Below are positions 1 to 44,032 of a stretch of DNA of 46,022 nt, piece after piece (the stretch's first letter is position 1; every line of letters begins with the position of its first letter). Source of the stretch: Nitrospirae bacterium MYbinv3 (GTDB lineage Bacteria > Nitrospirota > Thermodesulfovibrionia > Thermodesulfovibrionales > Magnetobacteriaceae); the NCBI GenBank assembly GCA_002753395.1, contig PEAB01000020.1, positions 1 to 46,022 on the forward strand, in the 5' to 3' direction. The position numbers and the translations under genes were made by a program. The notes beneath the pieces are model-generated. The model worked only from the letters and a program-made list of their open reading frames with translations. It was not told where the DNA came from and did no database searches.

Positions 1-105
1 GAATGGATTAATTTTAGCGCATACAAAAGTTGGAAACACTTGGTAGATTACATTGATGATGTGCTTAATAATTTTGGACAAGAATATATAATTAATTATG
101 GGTAG
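1..105 (+). CDS. 3' end of an unidentified gene (edge fragment)
   Basis: Frame 1 is open from the first base to a TAG at 103-105, giving 34 residues that end in the acidic, aromatic tail DYIDDVLNNFGQEYIINYG. The composition is protein-like. It overlaps the minus-strand ORF that starts at 189, and both cannot be intact genes. One explanation is the tail of a transposase that inserted into the minus-strand gene. This is inference, since the family cannot be told from 34 residues. Confidence 0.3.
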   Translation, partial: EWINFSAYKSWKHLVDYIDDVLNNFGQEYIINYG

Positions 106-189
106 GTACTTACCATCCCTTTCAATTAACATCTTAATTACTGTTTCAAAACCATCGGGATTATTAATTCTTACATCTGGCTCAGGCAT
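1..189 (-). CDS. Partial small ORF with strong RBS, cut by window edge
   Basis: An ATG at 189 is preceded by a strong Shine-Dalgarno (AGGAGG around 193-200, about 6 nt spacing). The frame stays open to the window edge (63 codons). The first 30 residues (MPEPDVRINNPDGFETVIKM and on) look like an ordinary soluble protein. The rest is rich in I, F and Y and less protein-like. An open frame on the other strand ends at 105, so this gene may be interrupted near 105-115 by an incoming element. No family recognised. Confidence 0.4.
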   Translation of the reverse strand, partial: MPEPDVRINNPDGFETVIKMLIERDGKYLPIINYIFLSKIIKHIINVIYQVFPTFVCAKINPF

Positions 190-335
190 AAATACCCTCC
201 TTTATTTAAAAGGCTTTGCTACTACAATACATAAAATAAAGAGTTCTGCCAATAGCTTATAATTAGCAAAATATTTTGCTTTAAACAGTCAATTCAATCA
301 TTAATTAGCTGTTATCACATTAATAACAACTATTC

Positions 336-519
336 TAGCTTGACGATGTCATATTCCAAATCTCTGTAATAAGATGTCTGAACCACGATTTAACGGATTA
401 AGGGATTGTCAGGATTATATTTAAAAAGGCTTTCTGTCTTTTTCCTGTAAATCCTTAAATCTGTGTAATCCTAGTTCAGACAATCCCTACATTTACTTAA
501 ATCTGACATTGTCAAGCTA
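336..519. mobile_element. Small MITE-like element, TTGACAATGTCA-type ends
   Basis: A 184-bp non-coding element bounded by inverted repeats: TAGCTTGACGATGTCA at 336-351 and its near-perfect complement at 504-519. Inside lies the core shared with four other places in the window. The core starts with TCTGAACCACGATTTAACGG and ends with the complementary CCTAGTTCAGACAATCCC, so it is itself an imperfect palindrome. No transposase is encoded and no clear target duplication was seen. The rest of 190-713 holds only this element and the one at 549-714. Confidence 0.7.
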
Positions 520-548
520 TAGTTATACATGTATTACAGGTATCTTTT

Positions 549-714
549 TATATACTAAACTAAATGGAGTTTGCAAAAAGATTTTGACCTTGACATCCAA
601 TAACATGAAAATGTCATTCCTGCGAAAGCAGGAATCTATGCGTCTTGACGGGATTACGGAGTGGATTACTCGGGAATGACAAGATTTTTGCAAACCTGAC
701 TTATCTTGGTATAT
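549..714. mobile_element. Small inverted-repeat element abutting restriction gene
   Basis: The ends at about 549-585 and 682-714 form imperfect inverted repeats, both reaching the motif GTTTGCAAAAA. The interior carries the hairpin ATTCCTGCGAAAGCAGGAAT near 615-634 and a second outward copy, CGGGAATGAC, at 671-680. The right end touches the stop codon of the neighbouring endonuclease gene (714-716). The insertion therefore lies exactly at the 3' end of that gene and may have supplied its stop. Non-coding. Confidence 0.55.
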
Positions 715-1865
715 CAACTGATAGTCTCAAAATCAATGATCTTGTTTGAATTAAGGCAGTACTTGATCAGTTTCAGGTTATCCCACTGAAGTGTCTTTGC
801 AGGTCTCCTTCCTATCGTATACCTTCTCTTAGCGACCTCGTTTTTATGGACTATCGTACTGGCGTCAAAATCGTAAGCGACTAAGAAGGCATGGATCATG
901 TCATAGTCTCCATAGGCATACTCGTCCTTGACCCAGTCGACGTACTTGAGCAGCTGCTCGATGTCCTGTGGTAAGGCGGCGGCCTTTTTGATCTCACCGA
1001 CCAGGTACTTAGACCTTGTTGGTTCAAAGCCTTTTATGTAGGCATATCCAAAGAGATCCATTTTATCCATGTAGTCTATAGGTTTAAAGGGAGAGGCAAC
1101 AACCTGGTGGGAGAGGTAGTCCCATCGGCCAAAGGTCTCAAGCGTCCTCTGATCCTCATACGACAACTGATAAAGGATGCCCGCCTCAATAGCCATTTCA
1201 TGCTTTAAGTAGTCATCCTCTGCACAGCTTCCTAAGATTGTCCTGACGTCCAGACTGTAGCTAGGTGTCCGCAGTCTCTCTACGATGGCCTTGTGAAACC
1301 CTTCGTAGTCGCTCTTGAAGATATTGATACTCTCCTGAGGGGCGGAAAGGGCGTGTTGATTATATTTAAGGAGGACATCCTTGAAAGCCTGATTCTCTAC
1401 GTCGTCAAACTTGAGGAAAGAGACCTTCCAGAACGCCCTTAACATCCTAAAGGCGGAGGGGTTTGACGACAGGATGTCATCCATGTCCACACCCGTTGAA
1501 AAGAAAAATGGGGAGGGTTTAAAACAGCACAACCAGCGCTGATTGACGCTAAAGCCGCCCTCATCCCACACAAGGGCGTCCTTCATATCAGTATAATCAA
1601 ACGCCCGTGCACAACCAGCCTCTGGGAAGTTTGAAAACTTACAGTCGCTCTCTATGTTTACAAGTTCCCCTATGCCATATATCTTTCTGTCTATAAAAAA
1701 GTAGATGTTATCTTGCTGTTTCATTGTAGCATAATCGGCAAACGTTGCCTCATGATGCTTCTTCCATATCCCAACAGGGGCAGACAGCTTTGTGGCATAT
1801 ATACCACATGATATATATAGCTCTAACGATTCGATACTGTCCAGATTAAAGATGTAACCGGCCAT
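714..1865 (-). CDS. Probable type II restriction endonuclease
   Basis: A 383-residue soluble protein encoded 7 nt downstream of a Dam-type DNA adenine methylase on the same strand, the usual layout of a restriction-modification pair. Near the C-terminus there is a plausible PD-(D/E)XK catalytic core: D270 in DLFGY, then E291-x-K293 in KYLVGEIKK, followed by an amphipathic stretch DIEQLLKYVDWV. That spacing and the hydrophobic strand before E-x-K suit type II nucleases. The overall sequence is not a family I recognise and is longer than DpnII. The function rests on context plus this motif, so it could also be another methylase-associated protein. The gene ends at a small repeat element. Confidence 0.6.
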   Translation of the reverse strand: MAGYIFNLDSIESLELYISCGIYATKLSAPVGIWKKHHEATFADYATMKQQDNIYFFIDRKIYGIGELVNIESDCKFSNFPEAGCARAFDYTDMKDALVWDEGGFSVNQRWLCCFKPSPFFFSTGVDMDDILSSNPSAFRMLRAFWKVSFLKFDDVENQAFKDVLLKYNQHALSAPQESINIFKSDYEGFHKAIVERLRTPSYSLDVRTILGSCAEDDYLKHEMAIEAGILYQLSYEDQRTLETFGRWDYLSHQVVASPFKPIDYMDKMDLFGYAYIKGFEPTRSKYLVGEIKKAAALPQDIEQLLKYVDWVKDEYAYGDYDMIHAFLVAYDFDASTIVHKNEVAKRRYTIGRRPAKTLQWDNLKLIKYCLNSNKIIDFETIS

Positions 1866-1872
1866 AAACGGG

Positions 1873-2760
1873 CTAACTCCAGTTCTTGATCAACACCTCA
1901 AACAGCCCTCTTCCACGTTTATCGCCTTTGCAGTTGATAGCCCGATTGGCCTCTATCTCCTGGATGTTGTAACCTCTGTAGAGGTCCTTGATAAACTCCG
2001 TGTTGGAGTTTGAAAGCATTACGTGGCAACCCTTCTCATTCAACGCTGTAAAGACCTCTGACAGCTCAATCTGGTCATTGTCTGAGAAGTCACCCTTGGA
2101 GTACTTTGTAAAAGACGAGGTAGCTGTAAGCGGATGGTATGGTGGGTCAAGGTAGACAAAATCATTGGATTTTGCCAGTAAAACGGTCTGCTTGTAGTCC
2201 TGGTGATATATTCTTACATCGCTGGAGTTGAGGTAGGCTGATATGTTTAAGAGATTTTCTCTATCCAGTATGGCAGGATTTTGATAATCCCCAAATGGGA
2301 CATTAAACTCACCCCTTGAGTTTTCCCTATACAGGCCGTTGTAACACGTCTTGTTAAGATATATAAAACGGCTTGCTCGTTGTACTTTATCCATTAGAGA
2401 GGTGTCCTTAGCCCTTTCCTTATAGAAGAAGACTTCTTTATTGTTCTTTCTTGCAAGACTCCTTATCAGCTTATCAACGTTGTTCCTAATAACCAGGTAT
2501 GCGTTGATAAGCTCTGCGTTTATGTCAGATATGATTGCCTGCTTGGGCAGAAGTTCAAACATCAGGGCACCCCCCCCAACAAACGGTTCAATGTAGGTAT
2601 CGTACTTTTCAGGGACGTTAACCGCAAGGACGTTCAACAATTGCCTCTTGCCACCGGCCCACTTAACAAACGGCCTAGACCTGGTCACTTTAGCTCCGCT
2701 CGCTTGATGAGACATAGTTCCGCCCTCAAGCCCCCTTGCCTGCATAGCATTGTCCATCAT
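1873..2760 (-). CDS. dam: DNA adenine N6-methyltransferase, Dam/DpnM type (class D12)
   Basis: Transfers a methyl group from S-adenosylmethionine to adenine in DNA. Visible motifs are FVKWAGGKRQLL at residues 31-42 (N-terminal binding motif of the D12 class), EPFVGGGALMFEL at 58-70 (AdoMet-binding FxGxG) and the catalytic DPPY at 205-208. The C-terminal RAINCKGDKRGRG segment is like that of DpnM and Dam, which recognise GATC; the same target here is inference. The length (295 aa) is normal for the family. The start at 2760 has no clear ribosome-binding site, and an in-frame ATG at 2715 leaves the conserved region intact and is a fair alternative. First gene of a likely two-gene operon with the endonuclease gene 7 nt downstream. 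Confidence 0.93.
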   Translation of the reverse strand: MMDNAMQARGLEGGTMSHQASGAKVTRSRPFVKWAGGKRQLLNVLAVNVPEKYDTYIEPFVGGGALMFELLPKQAIISDINAELINAYLVIRNNVDKLIRSLARKNNKEVFFYKERAKDTSLMDKVQRASRFIYLNKTCYNGLYRENSRGEFNVPFGDYQNPAILDRENLLNISAYLNSSDVRIYHQDYKQTVLLAKSNDFVYLDPPYHPLTATSSFTKYSKGDFSDNDQIELSEVFTALNEKGCHVMLSNSNTEFIKDLYRGYNIQEIEANRAINCKGDKRGRGLFEVLIKNWS

Positions 2761-2940
2761 TCAGAACAGGTCTGTATATGTTGAGTTATCGAGTTGCCCT
2801 CTCAGCTTCTTTTTTTAAGTAGCACAATGTTACTTCTATAAAATACACAAAACAAACGGATTTTAGCAAGGGTGTAGTGTGGGTGCCAGTAATTCTCATT
2901 GAAGAGTGAAGATATATCTTTGATGGATGGCTTCTGAAAG

Positions 2941-3091
2941 AACATCATAGGGTGCATAAGAATTTCATGGGGGACAATAAAAATTAATGGGGTCAAGGGG
3001 ACTGGTCCCCTTGTGGGTGGGTCTGAGGGAGGGCAAAGCCCTCCATTCTATTCAAAAATCCCCACGAATTTCTTATGCACCCAACATCATA
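2941..3091. mobile_element. 133-bp MITE (2950-3082) with 9-bp target duplication
   Basis: Inverted repeats start GGGTGCATAAGAA at 2950 and end with the complement TTCTTATGCACCC at 3082, matching over about 24 bp with two mismatches. The sequence AACATCATA flanks the element on both sides (2941-2949 and 3083-3091), as expected for a 9-bp target-site duplication. The interior is a G-rich segment with two palindromes, AAGGGGACTGGTCCCCTT and GAGGGCAAAGCCCTC, also found at three other full sites in the window. No ORF. The rest of 2761-3263 holds a fragment near 2885-2899 resembling the TIR of the 29539 element and nothing else recognisable. Confidence 0.8.
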
Positions 3092-3263
3092 GCAAAGGCT
3101 GACATAAATACGTTATGTATGCTATATTTTATCTTACCCTTTTGTCTATCTGGGGTTTTTCCAATATAGTAGAAAAGACAGTCACCAAAGCGCCAAACGA
3201 CAGATGCTTCTTTATCTTCATGTATAAATGCAGCATAGGGAGAGCAGCGTTCCGCCTTCTATC

Positions 3264-6047
3264 TTATTGTTGTGCGATGCAGACGCGGTTGCGGCCTTGG
3301 CGTTTGGCGCTGTAGAGGGCGTTGTCCGCGGCCTGAAAGATTTCCTGGGTCTCCTGACCGTGGTCTGGCAGGACTGCCACGCCTAATGAAAGTGAAATAG
3401 AGCCGAGGGATTGACGCTCGTACACGACGTTTAGTTGCTTGACGCCTTCGCGTAAAAACTCGGCGCGTTCCCAGGCTACATCAAGCGAGGCGTCGGGCAT
3501 GATGAGCGCAAACTCCTCGCCACCGTAGCGGCATGCGACGTCTCCATTGCGGACATTCTTTTTCAGATATATCCCAAGCTCTCGTAAAACGGCATCTCCA
3601 GCCTCATGGCCGAAGGTGTCATTAAACCGCTTGAAGTGGTCTATGTCAACCATGATGACGCCTACCGGAGTGCCTTTCCTGATGGCGCGGCCCCGCTCCA
3701 AGTCAAACGACTCCTCCATGTAGCGGCGATTGTACAGTCCTGTAAGAGGGTCTCGCGTGGAGAGGTTTTGCAGTGTCTCGCGTAGCTTTAGGTTGGCTAT
3801 AGCCATAGCTGAGTTTTCAGCAATAACGATAGCAAGATGCTTCCTTGCCTTAAGCCTCTGAGCTTCACCTTCCTTATCTAAGACAGGGGCAATCTGCAGA
3901 TGCAGCAGGCCGAGCGTCTCCCCCTGCGCAGTCATAGGTACGCAGACGTATGAATTCATACTATATCCCAAGTGCTGACATCTTAGGACTGTTTGAGCAT
4001 GTAAAATTGAGTGGGGGCGTCCTCGACGTAGTGCCCAACAATCATCTGGCTTTAAAATATCCGACTCAGGTGGCACATCTCCCCATACAGCCTTAGCCTC
4101 TAGGATGTTGCGTGAGGTACTAAAGGCGTACAATGCCCCTGAATCACCGTCAAATAGCTTTGAGGCCGCTTCTACAATAATAGAACAGGCCTCATCAACG
4201 GTAGAGCAGGCCAGCAATAGTTCGCTCATCTTACTAAGCTGTCTGTTTTCATTGTTACGCTGCTGCAGAGCGGCTGCCCTCTCGGACAGTTGCCTGTTTA
4301 CAAGCTCTAACTCAGCTGTTCGCTGGGTTACCCTGTCTTGAAGCTCCTCTTTTGCAGAAAGCAGCTCACTCTGCATGCGTTTATGCTCAGCCAGCAGGCG
4401 AAGCGACTCAATGCCAAAGGACAGATCCTCGGTCAGCTCTACTAAAAGCCCTACCTCTTGTGCATCAAATACGTCAATCTCTCTGGCACATACGGTTAAC
4501 ACGCCAAGTACCTTATCCTTATTTATCAGCGGTACTGCCAAAGTTGAGGAATAAGCGTATTTAGTCGCCTCTATGTGCAGGTAGGCACACTCAGGGTCTG
4601 CCATTATGTTGTTTGACATGGCTGGTTTGAGCGTATTTATAGCCCTTGAATAGATAGTAGCTTTTGTTAACGCATTTAAATGCAGGGTCTCCAAATAGTC
4701 CTTTTCGTAGCCTATCTGTGCCAAGATAAGGATGCCCTTGTCTTTGTCATCCTGTATTAGACCTATCCAAGACTGACTGTAGCCACCATCCTCTACAACT
4801 ATGCGACATACGTCGTGGGTCAAGACCGTATCGTTGGTGGCGTATGCCAGGGCGTGATTGCACCGGCTAAGTATGTTTAGACGTCTATTAAGGCCGATTA
4901 GCTTCTCTGTGCGTTCATTGACCTTATTCTCAAGTTCAGTACTATAAGCCAACAATCTACCCTGGTATTGCTTCAGATCAGCTGCCATACTGTTAAAAAG
5001 CTCCGAGAGCTGCCCCACCTCGTCGCTTGAAGTAACCTGCAGCCTAACGTCAAGGTTTCCCTTGCCAATCTCAGCGGCAGCTAGACCAAGCTGTTTTATT
5101 GGGACAGAGATAGAGCGTGAAAGCAGGTATATGATCAACGTGGCCAGCATACCTACAAACAGGGAAATGATAATCGTTATATTTCTCAACGACACGGCAG
5201 AGGCAAATGCCTGACTTGTCGGGACGTTGATGATCAACGTCCAGTCGTTGCCTTGAAAGTCGAGGTACCCAGATTCCTTGGCAAATGCGAGTATCTCCTC
5301 GATATTCTTACTCTTGTTGGTGTGCTTCGTACTCCCATAGCTCTTGCCCTCTGATATCATTTGCTGGATCATCGGCCAGTCGGGTGATATCCCTTTCAAT
5401 ATCTCGTTTTTATTGTGGCTTGAGTATAGGATCAGGCCATTTTTATTGACCAAGTCTATCTCAAATGAGTTGTCAACGGTATCGTGTTCAACTGCCCTTT
5501 TGGTTATTTCGTGCAGGTGATCTATGAATACCCGTGAGGTTACAACGGCAAATGACACTGCTACCTTGTCTTTAACGACGTGGGCAAAGCGAAACGCCGT
5601 CTCTTTGAGGGTAACGGAGACGGCTATATCCATAGCAAAATTGCTGCCTTCCGAGATTTTACCCCAGTAGCCTTTCAATTCATCTTGTACTCCGATGTTT
5701 TTGCCTGTTGTATCGATGAGACGCACTCTGTTGATGTTGTAAAATGACACTGAGGCGTATTTGTTATCGTGGCTTTTGTACTCCATTATGCGTTCCTTTA
5801 TCTGTGCCATCGAGGACGCCTTGGAGCTGACAACTGGGTCATTTGCAAGGCGCTTGATGTCTATATATTTTTCATATAGCATCCTGTCTATCTTGTCGAT
5901 GGCGTGGAAGGCCTTTTCTTCCAAGTTGCGCCTTATCTGTGTTTCCAATGCTCTGGTGTTTGACACGTAGTTGGTGTAAGAGACAAGAACAATGAAGACC
6001 ACCCCTATGGCCGAAAACAAAAAAGTAAGCTTTGTTGCAAATCTCAT
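3264..6047 (-). CDS. Membrane diguanylate cyclase (sensor-HAMP-GAF-GAF-GGDEF)
   Basis: Makes cyclic di-GMP from two GTP. Layout of the 927-928 residues: membrane helix at 7-28, periplasmic Cache-like sensor at about 30-285, second helix at about 288-311, HAMP at 312-364, coiled coil, GAF at about 395-540, coiled coil, second GAF at about 610-750, and GGDEF at 766-928. The active-site loop reads GGEEF (843-847). An RNGD inhibitory site (834-837) sits five residues upstream, so product inhibition is expected. GTG at 6050 and ATG at 6047 are both possible; ATG is preferred because TATAAT lies 8 nt before it and no Shine-Dalgarno is evident, suggesting a leaderless message. No EAL domain. Ligand unknown. 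Confidence 0.92.
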   Translation of the reverse strand: MRFATKLTFLFSAIGVVFIVLVSYTNYVSNTRALETQIRRNLEEKAFHAIDKIDRMLYEKYIDIKRLANDPVVSSKASSMAQIKERIMEYKSHDNKYASVSFYNINRVRLIDTTGKNIGVQDELKGYWGKISEGSNFAMDIAVSVTLKETAFRFAHVVKDKVAVSFAVVTSRVFIDHLHEITKRAVEHDTVDNSFEIDLVNKNGLILYSSHNKNEILKGISPDWPMIQQMISEGKSYGSTKHTNKSKNIEEILAFAKESGYLDFQGNDWTLIINVPTSQAFASAVSLRNITIIISLFVGMLATLIIYLLSRSISVPIKQLGLAAAEIGKGNLDVRLQVTSSDEVGQLSELFNSMAADLKQYQGRLLAYSTELENKVNERTEKLIGLNRRLNILSRCNHALAYATNDTVLTHDVCRIVVEDGGYSQSWIGLIQDDKDKGILILAQIGYEKDYLETLHLNALTKATIYSRAINTLKPAMSNNIMADPECAYLHIEATKYAYSSTLAVPLINKDKVLGVLTVCAREIDVFDAQEVGLLVELTEDLSFGIESLRLLAEHKRMQSELLSAKEELQDRVTQRTAELELVNRQLSERAAALQQRNNENRQLSKMSELLLACSTVDEACSIIVEAASKLFDGDSGALYAFSTSRNILEAKAVWGDVPPESDILKPDDCWALRRGRPHSILHAQTVLRCQHLGYSMNSYVCVPMTAQGETLGLLHLQIAPVLDKEGEAQRLKARKHLAIVIAENSAMAIANLKLRETLQNLSTRDPLTGLYNRRYMEESFDLERGRAIRKGTPVGVIMVDIDHFKRFNDTFGHEAGDAVLRELGIYLKKNVRNGDVACRYGGEEFALIMPDASLDVAWERAEFLREGVKQLNVVYERQSLGSISLSLGVAVLPDHGQETQEIFQAADNALYSAKRQGRNRVCIAQQ

Positions 6048-6101
6048 CACCCACTATTATACACTACAGCGAAAAAAAAGAGTAAAAGGATGGAGAAAGT
6101 A

Positions 6102-6480: not shown

Positions 6481-6900
6481 ATGAAGACAGCGGGGGTTTT
6501 GCAAAAAGACGGTTTTACGCTAATAGAGATTATGGTTGCTATTACTCTTGTGGCTATAGGGATAACCTCAATAGTGCAGCTTTTTTCAGGGTCGTTGAGG
6601 CTGGTTTCCTCCTCTGAGGGCTACACAAAGGCGATTGTCGCCGCTCAGTCTAAGCTCAGGAGCGTGATTGCTGACAGCAACCTAAGGGAAGAAGAGTATA
6701 TGGAAAAGGCCAATAATGTCTATACATATCATGTGTCGATCCAACAGATAGATAAAGACAAGACCGATCCCCTGCAGTACGATCTATATTCAATAAAGGT
6801 GACTGTAAAATGGAAAAGTGTCGTTAATGAAAAATCTTATACCCTCAGTACCGTATATGCTAAAAAGAAAGATACGATAGTCAAGACGACGCCCTCTTGA
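6481..6900 (+). CDS. gspI: Type II secretion minor pseudopilin GspI-like
   Basis: The N-terminus carries a class III prepilin signal: a short charged leader, cleavage expected between G11 and F12 in the DGFTLIEIMVAI segment, glutamate at mature position 5, then a hydrophobic helix to about residue 35. The size (139 aa), the position as first gene and the following gspJ and gspK support GspI, one of the minor pseudopilins at the tip of the pseudopilus. It is processed by a prepilin peptidase not encoded here. Three bases separate it from gspJ. The leader peptide and helix are certain; the letter I is by order and length. Confidence 0.82.
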   Translation: MKTAGVLQKDGFTLIEIMVAITLVAIGITSIVQLFSGSLRLVSSSEGYTKAIVAAQSKLRSVIADSNLREEEYMEKANNVYTYHVSIQQIDKDKTDPLQYDLYSIKVTVKWKSVVNEKSYTLSTVYAKKKDTIVKTTPS

Positions 6901-6903
6901 TGT

Positions 6904-7578
6904 ATGTCTCAAGATAAAAGAAATCGCTTTATACAGGATTCTTCAAAAGGTTTTACCCTAATAGAGTTGATTATAGCTATGACTATACTGACGATGATAG
7001 CGCTGATCCTTGGCTTTGCCATGCGGCTTGGTATAAAGAGCGTTGAAAAAAGTGAGGCGAAAATAGAATATTTAGAAAGGACCAGGGCCTCGTTGAGGAT
7101 AATCGAGTCTCAATTGCAGTCTTTTGTACCGCTCACGTATGACGATATGGGGAAGCGTTATTACTATTTTAAGGGGCAGGAAGATAATTTGTCATTTATG
7201 AGCAGTGTTTCGTTATGGGGCAGACAGAGTGGCATGATACAGGTGACATATGAGGTGATCAGAGACAGAGACGATGACTCTATGTCGCTTGTTGTTCAGG
7301 AGGAGAGCGCCTATACTAAGGAGACGAGAAGTACAGTCCTGTTAAAGAATTTTAAGGAGATATCGTTCAACTTCTTCGTCAAGAAGCCGGAGGACAAGGA
7401 AGGGGACTGGAGCAAGGGTGTGGAAGGGGCCGACAACGTCCCCCTGTGGGTGTCATTGACTGCTGACAGCTCCAACTTCAAGATAGAGATGATGATACCT
7501 ATAAGGGCAAGGGCCTCTATTACCATGAAAAATCCCCCCTCTACAAATATCTTTGGCGGCATTTCTACGTTTAAGTAA
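6904..7578 (+). CDS. gspJ: Type II secretion minor pseudopilin GspJ-like
   Basis: Prepilin-type N-terminus with cleavage site before FTLIELIIAMTILTM (about residue 17), followed by a C-terminal globular region of about 180 residues. The length (224 aa) and the long segment after the helix fit GspJ, which forms the pseudopilus tip complex with I and K. The stop codon TAA shares its last A with the ATG of gspK, so translation is probably coupled. Confidence 0.82.
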   Translation: MSQDKRNRFIQDSSKGFTLIELIIAMTILTMIALILGFAMRLGIKSVEKSEAKIEYLERTRASLRIIESQLQSFVPLTYDDMGKRYYYFKGQEDNLSFMSSVSLWGRQSGMIQVTYEVIRDRDDDSMSLVVQEESAYTKETRSTVLLKNFKEISFNFFVKKPEDKEGDWSKGVEGADNVPLWVSLTADSSNFKIEMMIPIRARASITMKNPPSTNIFGGISTFK

Positions 7579-8567
7579 TGACTCCGGTAAGACGTAACTC
7601 AGAAGGTATTGCCTTGATACTGGTTTTATGGTGCATGGCAATTCTTATAGGTCTGTCTCTGACCCTGTCCTACATGTCTCGTTCTGAGTCTAAGGCGAGT
7701 CTCAACTCTAAAGAGTACGTGAGGGCAAGTTTTATAGCGGAGGGGGGAATAAATCAGGCCATTGTGGAGCTTCTCTACAGACGCAAAAGACCGGATGACG
7801 CGGATAAATGGAAGTTCGACGGGGTTTTTAGGTCAGTTGAGATTGCAGGTGAGACGTGTCTTATAAGGTTGACCCCAGAGACGGCTAAAGTAGATTTAAA
7901 CGCTGCCAATGAAGTAATATTAAAGGGGCTTGTTAATGCCCTTGGTATTGACGCCGATGTACAGGACATAATAGTGGACTCTATACAGGATTGGAAGGAC
8001 AGTGATGATTTACACCGCTTGCACGGGGCCGAGAGCGATTACTATATGTCTCTTAAACATCCATACAAGTCTAAAAACGCCCCATTTGACGCCGTTGACG
8101 AGCTGCTCATGGTCAGAGGGGTAACGCCCGATATATTTTATGGAAGCGAAGGCAAAAAGGGACTTAGAGACCTTGTTACGGTATACAATAAAGGCGGTAA
8201 GATAAATATCAATGCCGCCCAAAAGGAGGTCTTGATGGCCCTGCCCAACGTCACTGAGGATGTTGCCAACATGATTATTGAGCGCAGGAAGAGCCTGGAG
8301 TTTAAACAACCCAATGAGCTTCAGGATCTGCTACGTGATGTGTTTGCTGCTATACAGGGTTACGTTGACCTGTCAGAGCCTAATGTCTTTACTGTCGACT
8401 CCATTGGTAAGATACAAGGCTATGCGTCACAAGTAGGAATAAGGGCTATTGTAGAGTTAACCGCAACTGAGGCTAGTTACTTATATTATAAGGCCCCTGA
8501 AAAGTTTACGCTACAAGACCAGGAGGGTGAGTCAACCGATAAGCCTGGTAGTACTGCGTCAAAGTAA
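7578..8567 (+). CDS. gspK: Type II secretion minor pseudopilin GspK-like
   Basis: A prepilin-like N-terminus (EGIALILVLWCMAILIGLSL) lacking the FTLIE consensus, as is usual for GspK. A large domain follows with two helix-hairpin-helix-like segments: VDLNAANEVILKGLVNALGI near residue 95 and ININAAQKEVLMALPNVTED near 210, both typical of GspK. GspK caps the pseudopilus tip. The length of 329 residues is normal. The ATG overlaps the gspJ stop by one base, and the next gene starts 24 nt downstream. Confidence 0.88.
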   Translation: MTPVRRNSEGIALILVLWCMAILIGLSLTLSYMSRSESKASLNSKEYVRASFIAEGGINQAIVELLYRRKRPDDADKWKFDGVFRSVEIAGETCLIRLTPETAKVDLNAANEVILKGLVNALGIDADVQDIIVDSIQDWKDSDDLHRLHGAESDYYMSLKHPYKSKNAPFDAVDELLMVRGVTPDIFYGSEGKKGLRDLVTVYNKGGKININAAQKEVLMALPNVTEDVANMIIERRKSLEFKQPNELQDLLRDVFAAIQGYVDLSEPNVFTVDSIGKIQGYASQVGIRAIVELTATEASYLYYKAPEKFTLQDQEGESTDKPGSTASK

Positions 8568-11737: not shown

Positions 11738-11806
11738 TAAAATCATTTTAACATAAATGCCTATGTAGTTTACTCCGCTCTTTACTGAACATGTCTGTCA
11801 TTGTAT

Positions 11807-11830
11807 GTCATTCCTGCGAAAGCAGGAATC
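11807..11830. repeat. GAAA-loop hairpin repeat (REP/dRS3-like)
   Basis: Contains the perfect hairpin ATTCCTGC-GAAA-GCAGGAAT preceded by GTC. The same unit, with small changes, occurs at 613-636, 25437-25462, 25489-25512 and 43974-43997, always between genes. Similar dispersed palindromes are known in several bacterial phyla; their role here is unknown. Confidence 0.75.
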
Positions 11831-25402: not shown

Positions 25403-25572
25403 CCTTCTTAATACACTTATGGGTGAACTATTACCTGAATTCCTGCTTACGCAGGAATGACATGGAACAGCTAAAGACGCCATTTGCTGTCATTCCAGCG
25501 AAAGCGGGAATCTATTTTCAAGAGTTGCATAAAATACTGGTTTATAAAAAAGTGCAAAAGTATAGATTTAAT

Positions 25573-43949: not shown

Positions 43950-43973
43950 AACCTTGTCATTTCTGGACACCTT

Positions 43974-43997
43974 GTCAATCCTGCGAAAGCAGGAATC
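43974..43997. repeat. GAAA-loop hairpin repeat
   Basis: AATCCTGC-GAAA-GCAGGAAT, one base different from the copy at 11807-11830. It lies between the deacetylase and glycosyltransferase genes. Confidence 0.65.
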
Positions 43998-44032
43998 TCC
44001 AAACTCTATAGATTACCCTGTCAAGCACGGCA

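Follow-up and report, generated by a model that had tools for sequence, protein, structure and literature searches.

A Dam-type methylase and a predicted EVE/YTH–EndoMS-like fusion protein as a candidate GATC restriction–modification pair in a Nitrospirae genome

Nucleases that act at GATC are usually seen as belonging to the DpnII, Sau3AI or DpnI types, as in a review of the field (PMC12707154). According to that review, the GATC methylation state that is cut varies among the pneumococcal cassettes DpnI, DpnII and DpnIII, and Sau3AI is reported to cut GATC whatever its N6-methyladenine (m6A) state (PMC11037411). The DpnII system of Streptococcus pneumoniae comprises DpnM, DpnA and DpnII, while Sau3AI/DpnIII-type systems combine a cytosine-C5 (C5) methylase with a MutH-like nuclease. 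A second GATC nuclease within one system has a precedent in SsuDAT1I of Streptococcus suis, which has two isoschizomeric nucleases. Here, a gene pair was analyzed in Nitrospirae bacterium MYbinv3 (GCA_002753395.1); the window, meaning the whole stretch of DNA that was studied, covers 46,022 nt of contig PEAB01000020.1 on the forward strand from position 1. The first gene (1873..2760, minus strand) encodes a 295-aa adenine-N6 DNA methyltransferase of the Dam/DpnM family. The second (714..1865, minus strand) encodes a 383-aa protein, hereafter the partner, which is a predicted nuclease according to its open reading frame (ORF), its AlphaFold2 model, fold matches and 29 relatives. On balance, we favor the reading that the two genes form a compact GATC restriction–modification system whose endonuclease belongs to a family apart from DpnII and Sau3AI, the partner probably being an overlooked GATC-cutting defense enzyme.

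The methylase is, by its sequence, a canonical member of the Dam/DpnM type. It scores 300.3 bits against TIGR00571 (dam), above the curated threshold of 114.85, and matches PF02086 with an E-value of 3.8e-68. Among solved structures it is closest to DpnM (2dpm, E 1.8e-74), followed by Escherichia coli Dam. Its KWAGGK, NGLYR and NVPFGxY blocks, which we take to be the GATC-contact regions in Dam, align with those of DpnM, where the first reads KWTGGK, and of E. coli Dam; the recognition blocks KWAGGK, NGL[YW]R and NVP[FM]GxY are common to all eight Dam-type methylases that were aligned. The window methylase would thus be expected to mark GATC. The window genome also contains two further D12 methylases, one with an internal stop. 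In the ORF list, the partner gene lies downstream of the methylase gene at a spacing of 7 nt, with both on the minus strand. A first-pass annotation of this DNA had described a canonical methylase beside a 383-aa partner at 714-2760, and both ORFs and the character of the methylase were confirmed.

The same annotation held that the partner does not resemble DpnII or Sau3AI, and profile searches agree. Searched alone, the partner has no Pfam hit at E<=1, hence neither PF04556 (DpnII) nor PF02976 (MutH). NCBIfam, NF040973 included, gave no DpnII or Sau3AI match and only a sub-threshold hit to the NucS equivalog, which scored 11.4 bits where 216 are required. The 29 relatives were recovered by scanning 84,980 species genomes with a pattern, and 24 of them were combined with the window protein into alignment A1; L021, L023, L026, L027 and L030, which are partial or broken, were excluded. 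The 25 sequences of A1 match nine families, among which DpnII (PF04556) and Sau3AI/MutH do not appear. NucS_C is touched by 21 of the 25 at E<=1 (best 1.2e-6) and EVE by a single sequence (E 0.02), and the family profile matches NucS (2vld) among solved structures with an E-value of 5.1e-4. Among the PADLOC models, PDC-S02 was found in 14 of the 25 sequences (best 4.8e-7) and PDC-S11 in nine, with one match to REase_II at 0.026. The residues D270, E291 and K293 (987..1058, minus strand), already pointed out as D270...E291-x-K293, are the predicted catalytic residues; together with Q304 and Y308, which follow them (942-956, minus strand), they are invariant in all 25 sequences and in 22 of 22 rows of a set that includes the distant homologs L088 and L031. 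Q304 and Y308 presumably represent the QxxxY motif of RecB-like nucleases. These results support placing the partner among PD-(D/E)XK proteins but not within the DpnII or Sau3AI/MutH profiles.

Although the first-pass annotation was right to set the partner apart from DpnII and Sau3AI, its view that the family is unfamiliar held only in part, as the predicted fold allows the protein to be placed. The AlphaFold2 model is confident (mean predicted local distance difference test score, pLDDT, 90.6; predicted template modeling score, pTM, 0.88) and was compared with known folds using VIA-align and Foldseek, the VIA-align results being read from the best 50 entries. Residues 212-373 align with EndoMS (5gke; Z 12.4, root-mean-square deviation [rmsd] 2.8, 114 aligned) and residues 222-372 with NucS (2vld; Z 12.3, rmsd 2.3, 108 aligned). 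Together with the NucS_C profile, this points to an EndoMS/NucS-type nuclease domain at 747..1232 (codons 212-373, minus strand). The N-terminal part aligns with YTHDC1 (6zda; Z 11.4, rmsd 4.1, 134 aligned), YTHDC2 (9szp; Z 11.3, rmsd 2.6, 125 aligned) and VcaM4I (6yex; Z 11.1, rmsd 3.5, 140 aligned). Among the best 50 entries, it was matched by YTH chains, by VcaM4I and by some chains that lack annotation, and because the YTH and EVE rows tie, the domain was labeled EVE/YTH-like. By predicted structure it would be a PUA-superfamily domain of the EVE/YTH type and a probable DNA-base reader, at 1332..1865 (codons 1-178, minus strand). In the alignment, Y23, F115, P119 and F122 of this predicted reader domain are near-invariant or invariant across the family. 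Comparison with a viral fold library yielded two hits at E<=0.001, which were to single domains or had a high rmsd. We therefore re-annotate the partner with confidence, on the basis of its modeled structure, as an EVE/YTH-like PUA domain fused to an EndoMS/NucS-like PD-(D/E)XK nuclease.

This architecture places the partner between two described enzymes. It shares with EndoMS/NucS the predicted C-terminal nuclease fold and the conserved D and ExK, but its N-terminus is EVE/YTH-like and its NucS equivalog score falls far below the cut-off. With VcaM4I, an EVE-HNH enzyme, it shares a predicted N-terminal EVE-like domain fused to a nuclease, whereas the nuclease domains differ and the partner travels with GATC methylases. 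The likeness to EndoMS/NucS, a mismatch endonuclease that flips bases (PMC8228993), raises the question of whether the partner could be a methylation-tied repair enzyme comparable to Vsr or EndoMS, one that cuts mismatches at GATC, such as T:G arising from deaminated 5-methylcytosine, or that substitutes for MutH, for which the window genome has no match. We regard such a role as quite improbable. The N-terminal domain is not that of NucS, adenine methylation gives no T:G mismatch, and the job of Vsr is already filled by a separate Vsr-like gene, which is found in L016, L017 and L022 and close to the C5 methylase in G613, G060 and G061. Moreover, the spread of the family is patchy, unlike that of housekeeping repair: the window genome alone has a full-length copy among 395 genomes of its phylum.

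The genomic neighborhoods of the family also bear on its role. In total, 34 loci were compared: the window, the 29 relatives from the pattern scan, the haloarchaeal plasmid locus L031, two loci (L087 and L088) found among 391 searched genomes of a single class, and L127, an IMG/VR contig. L026 and L109, two gene pieces at contig ends of one genome, were counted as one locus. A GATC-type methylase is located nearby in 27 of the 34, and in nine of these it lies <=35 nt away on the same strand by tblastn edges (for L026, via the piece L109). The accompanying systems are of several kinds. A Dam-type methylase stands alone in seven loci (the window, L002, L004, L005, L006, L026 and L030), a C5 methylase is accompanied by a Sau3AI/MutH-like nuclease in 16 of the 34, a C5 methylase stands alone in two (L010 and L019), and a Dam-type methylase is accompanied by DpnII in another two (G459, represented by L088/L104, and L127). 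Of six neighboring Sau3AI-like proteins tested, five passed the equivalog cut-off of 300 bits (L007, 560; L008, 554; L009, 510; L013, 439; L024, 418), while that of the haloarchaeal L031 remained below it at 85.7 bits. Among the remaining loci, contig edges cut L003, L021 and L023 beside the gene; in the L003 genome, a Dam-type methylase is located at the terminus of a different contig, and the L023 genome has one weak C5-methylase match (E 2.6e-9). In L018, L027, L029 and L087, no methylase partner adjoins the gene, and a C5 methylase is found elsewhere in the genome; in one of these four genomes, the C5 methylase had been flagged with a stop and reads intact. The L029 contig ends 51 bases after the match. 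Partial nuclease-domain matches in four other genomes of the phylum and in L089 were not accepted as family members. Overall, the genomic association of the partner family with GATC systems is strong and spans several kinds of them. Additionally, in L011, L013 and L017 the Sau3AI-like nuclease and the partner are accompanied by a second, different type of C5 methylase (~560 aa).

The two DpnII-bearing loci extend this tie to remote members of the family. In G459, the order is a Dam-type methylase, a stretch of ~0.85 kb, DpnII (PF04556, 374.4 bits), the homolog and a beta-class methylase. In L127 (2093-5909), a Dam-type methylase is followed by the homolog, DpnII (337.3 bits) and an N6_N4 methylase, the ORFs overlapping or lying close together. 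Each homolog is only ~24% identical to the window protein; in profile comparisons, the G459 homolog matched the family with 98.4% probability (E 8.6e-15; residues 2-335 covered) and the L127 homolog with 97.6% probability (E 2.8e-12; residues 2-333 covered). The model of the G459 homolog, which is poor (pLDDT 62) and may have been guided by family rows in its alignment, resembles EndoMS (Z 10.7, rmsd 3.6, 109 aligned) as well as YTH domains (Z 9.5, rmsd 3.2, 126 aligned). A beta-class methylase of ~260 aa also directly follows the partner in both a Dam-type system (L005:6162-6959) and a DpnII-type system (L104:7619-8395), and that of G459 is 52% identical to that of L005. The window locus resembles the DpnII system in its DpnM-family methylase and through these two distant family members; it differs in that the window genome has no DpnII profile match and the window nuclease falls outside PF04556. 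With Sau3AI/DpnIII-type systems it is connected through the 16 loci mentioned above, whereas the partner has no MutH/Sau3AI profile match and the window methylase is of the adenine type.

In the Dam-alone and C5-alone systems, including that of the window, the partner is the sole candidate GATC nuclease that profile searches found. Neither the MutH/Sau3AI nor the DpnII profile matched in any of the nine Dam-type genomes, namely those of the window (96.6% complete), L005 (Carboxydocella thermautotrophica; G802, the complete one), L002, L004, L006, L030, L003, L023 and L026. L023 was counted as Dam-type because its gene tail and the neighboring methylase match L006; no Dam was found in the L023 assembly itself. 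The two C5-alone genomes, L010 and L019, likewise lack matches to both profiles genome-wide, the absence being soft in the latter, a metagenome-assembled genome (MAG) of 1.5 Mb. In a tree of 28 rows, the C5-type rows, except for the long-branched L031, split from the Dam-type rows with support of 89/94, which is below the strict mark; L031 and L088, also long-branched, fall outside the split. The Dam label requires two changes on this tree, a value reached by 0 of 500 shuffles. The C5-alone rows adjoin different Sau3AI-bearing relatives, L010 with L009 (100/99) and L019 with L022 (95/87). The simplest account is a swap of the partner between Dam-type and C5-type methylases, together with two losses of Sau3AI in which methylase and partner were retained.

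Since the partner accompanies adenine and cytosine methylases as well as two unrelated GATC nucleases, GATC itself appears to be the common factor. On the restriction reading, the Dam/DpnM-type methylase would mark self DNA as Gm6ATC, the EVE/YTH-like domain would read the site, probably by base flipping, and the EndoMS-like PD-(D/E)XK domain would cut the DNA. Unmethylated GATC would be cleaved and methylated GATC spared, with self-marking by either m6A or 5-methylcytosine (m5C, 5mC) acting as the block. Because relatives are found with methylases of both kinds, adenine and C5, the partner would have to tolerate both marks; cutting that is blind to methylation, or that needs m6A or m5C at GATC, would lead one group of hosts to cut its own DNA. 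Base flipping is suggested by analogy, as EndoMS flips mismatched bases out before cutting (PMC8228993) and the EVE domain of VcaM4I flips 5mC or 5-hydroxymethylcytosine (5hmC) into a pocket (PMC7897488). Thus, cleavage, GATC specificity, base flipping and the block by methylation are what we infer for the partner, which may serve as a second nuclease beside Sau3AI/MutH-like enzymes or DpnII in about half of the loci and as the sole candidate in the window. More tentatively, these proteins could be restriction enzymes built from an EndoMS-type nuclease and an EVE/YTH reader that is used in reverse, so that cutting occurs only when the flipped GATC base is unmodified. Such a module may have been swapped between m6A- and m5C-marking systems and may constitute an overlooked extra GATC nuclease in bacteria and archaea.

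Several observations weigh against a GATC-cutting role for the partner. An ordinary Sau3AI/MutH-like or DpnII nuclease is also present in 18 of the 34 loci, and a second GATC cutter there looks redundant. The suggestion in the first-pass annotation that the partner may be a new type of GATC nuclease is supported by its position outside known profiles and its tie to GATC systems, but is tempered by this ordinary nuclease alongside. Furthermore, the tested EVE nuclease VcaM4I requires modified bases, 5mC or 5hmC (PMC7897488), fusions of EVE with PD(D/E)XK domains are predicted to be type IV enzymes (PMC7641849; PMC12707154), and SRA, EVE and YTH domains are named in a review as sensors of modification (PMC12707154). 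These points would fit a modification-dependent accessory nuclease, in which the EVE/YTH-like domain senses a phage-type base modification that makes DNA resistant to Sau3AI or DpnII and the EndoMS-like domain cleaves at that place, as a back-up against modified phages; the 18 loci with an ordinary GATC nuclease suit such a complementary role. We consider this explanation, the main rival, less likely than the restriction reading. A need for m6A or m5C at GATC is hardly possible, as hosts would be expected to carry one or the other mark, and the Dam-alone and C5-alone systems would be left with a methylase that has no nuclease to go with it, no other GATC nuclease being found there by profile. 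There would also be no obvious reason for a tie to unrelated families of GATC enzymes unless GATC matters.

Other reservations concern the sequence evidence and the state of individual loci. The reader domain is placed from predicted structure and has no sequence-profile support: a sequence search against solved structures found nothing, the best unrelated matches starting at E 0.33; hhalign comparisons with eight EVE proteins gave no match, five column-shuffled controls scoring alike; and PF01878 (EVE) finds nothing in the window genome. The window contig stops 713 bases past the partner gene, so a further gene may be missing from the locus, and the absences reported above are soft because most of the genomes are MAGs. 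In L021 and L023, no methylase partner was found beyond the weak C5-methylase match of L023, the second type of C5 methylase not having been searched for there. GATC reaches 0.67 of its expected frequency in the window genome (220,647 bases); two congeners that lack the gene have ratios of 0.56 (200,000 bases) and 0.62 (141,804 bases). Since the window genome avoids GATC no more than these congeners, GATC avoidance was set aside as an uninformative sign of active restriction. Finally, four copies appear damaged or interrupted: frameshifts affect L027 and L030, L021 has a stop near its start, and the L026 gene is in two contig-end pieces, both of which run on into 200-300 bases of other sequence, perhaps owing to an insertion. 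Dam homologs are often solitary, and together with these damaged relatives this could suggest an orphan regulatory methylase next to a passenger gene, the partner, that is degenerate or unrelated. This seems highly improbable, given that the window copy is intact, its active site is invariant and the same pairing recurs in other phyla.

Additional features border the pair. The claim that a repeat element lies exactly at the partner stop codon proved accurate: a copy of a repeat resembling a miniature inverted-repeat transposable element, at 549..714 with no strand assigned, has its right edge at 713/714 and abuts the stop codon TGA (714-716, complement). The repeat is ~166 bp long, has inverted arms at 541-579/685-723 and is matched at least 42 times in the genome (E<=0.001), a count for which 40 of 270 first-look candidates were scored; 19 matches, the window copy included, exceed 160 bp at >=90% identity. 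The repeat has not truncated the partner, since the partner C-terminus aligns with the ends of its relatives. It was judged not to be part of the system and says nothing about function. A shorter core repeat occurs elsewhere in the window (11805-11830, 25439-25515 and 43973-43998), and Rfam found nothing at gathering scores in window positions 1-3300. Upstream of the methylase, positions 3264-6050 encode a HAMP-GAF-GGDEF diguanylate cyclase-like protein of 928 aa, and three successive ORFs at 6481-8567 look by eye like type II secretion pseudopilins, with prepilin-type N-termini.

The spread of the family in mobile elements was also examined. Neither the window protein nor alignment A1 found a relative in IMG/VR, which yielded one distant homolog, L127; searches of phage records with the window protein and with the G459 homolog were negative. 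The viral label of L127 is uncertain because a reverse transcriptase and a peptidase-like gene lie on the same contig, and as this is the sole viral-labeled homolog, viral spread of the family is not supported. Among plasmids, the window protein and the L008 relative both find a single haloarchaeal record, the protein of that record finds only itself, and the distant homologs gave no match. Twenty other plasmid records carry a Sau3AI-like nuclease, which indicates that the partner is optional.

With regard to novelty, EVE-PD(D/E)XK fusions were noted in the EVE census of Bell et al. (PMC7641849), in the main text of which none of NucS, Sau3A, MutH or GATC occurs. Our literature searches, which did not extend to REBASE, where a characterized match is possible, returned no description linking the partner architecture to GATC systems. 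The methylase, the re-annotation of the partner as a fusion, as far as predicted structure can establish it, and the strong tie to GATC systems are firm, while the mechanism is a proposal. GATC is among the best-known restriction sites, and a further nuclease family acting there would be notable. If the proposal is true, it would illustrate the making of a restriction enzyme from a mismatch endonuclease and a methyl-reader, in a family that is tied to Dam, Sau3AI-type and DpnII-type systems, and EVE/YTH domains could be locks that guard against cutting self DNA, besides being sensors of foreign modification. If the partner is modification-dependent instead, GATC systems would have a built-in second line against modified phages.

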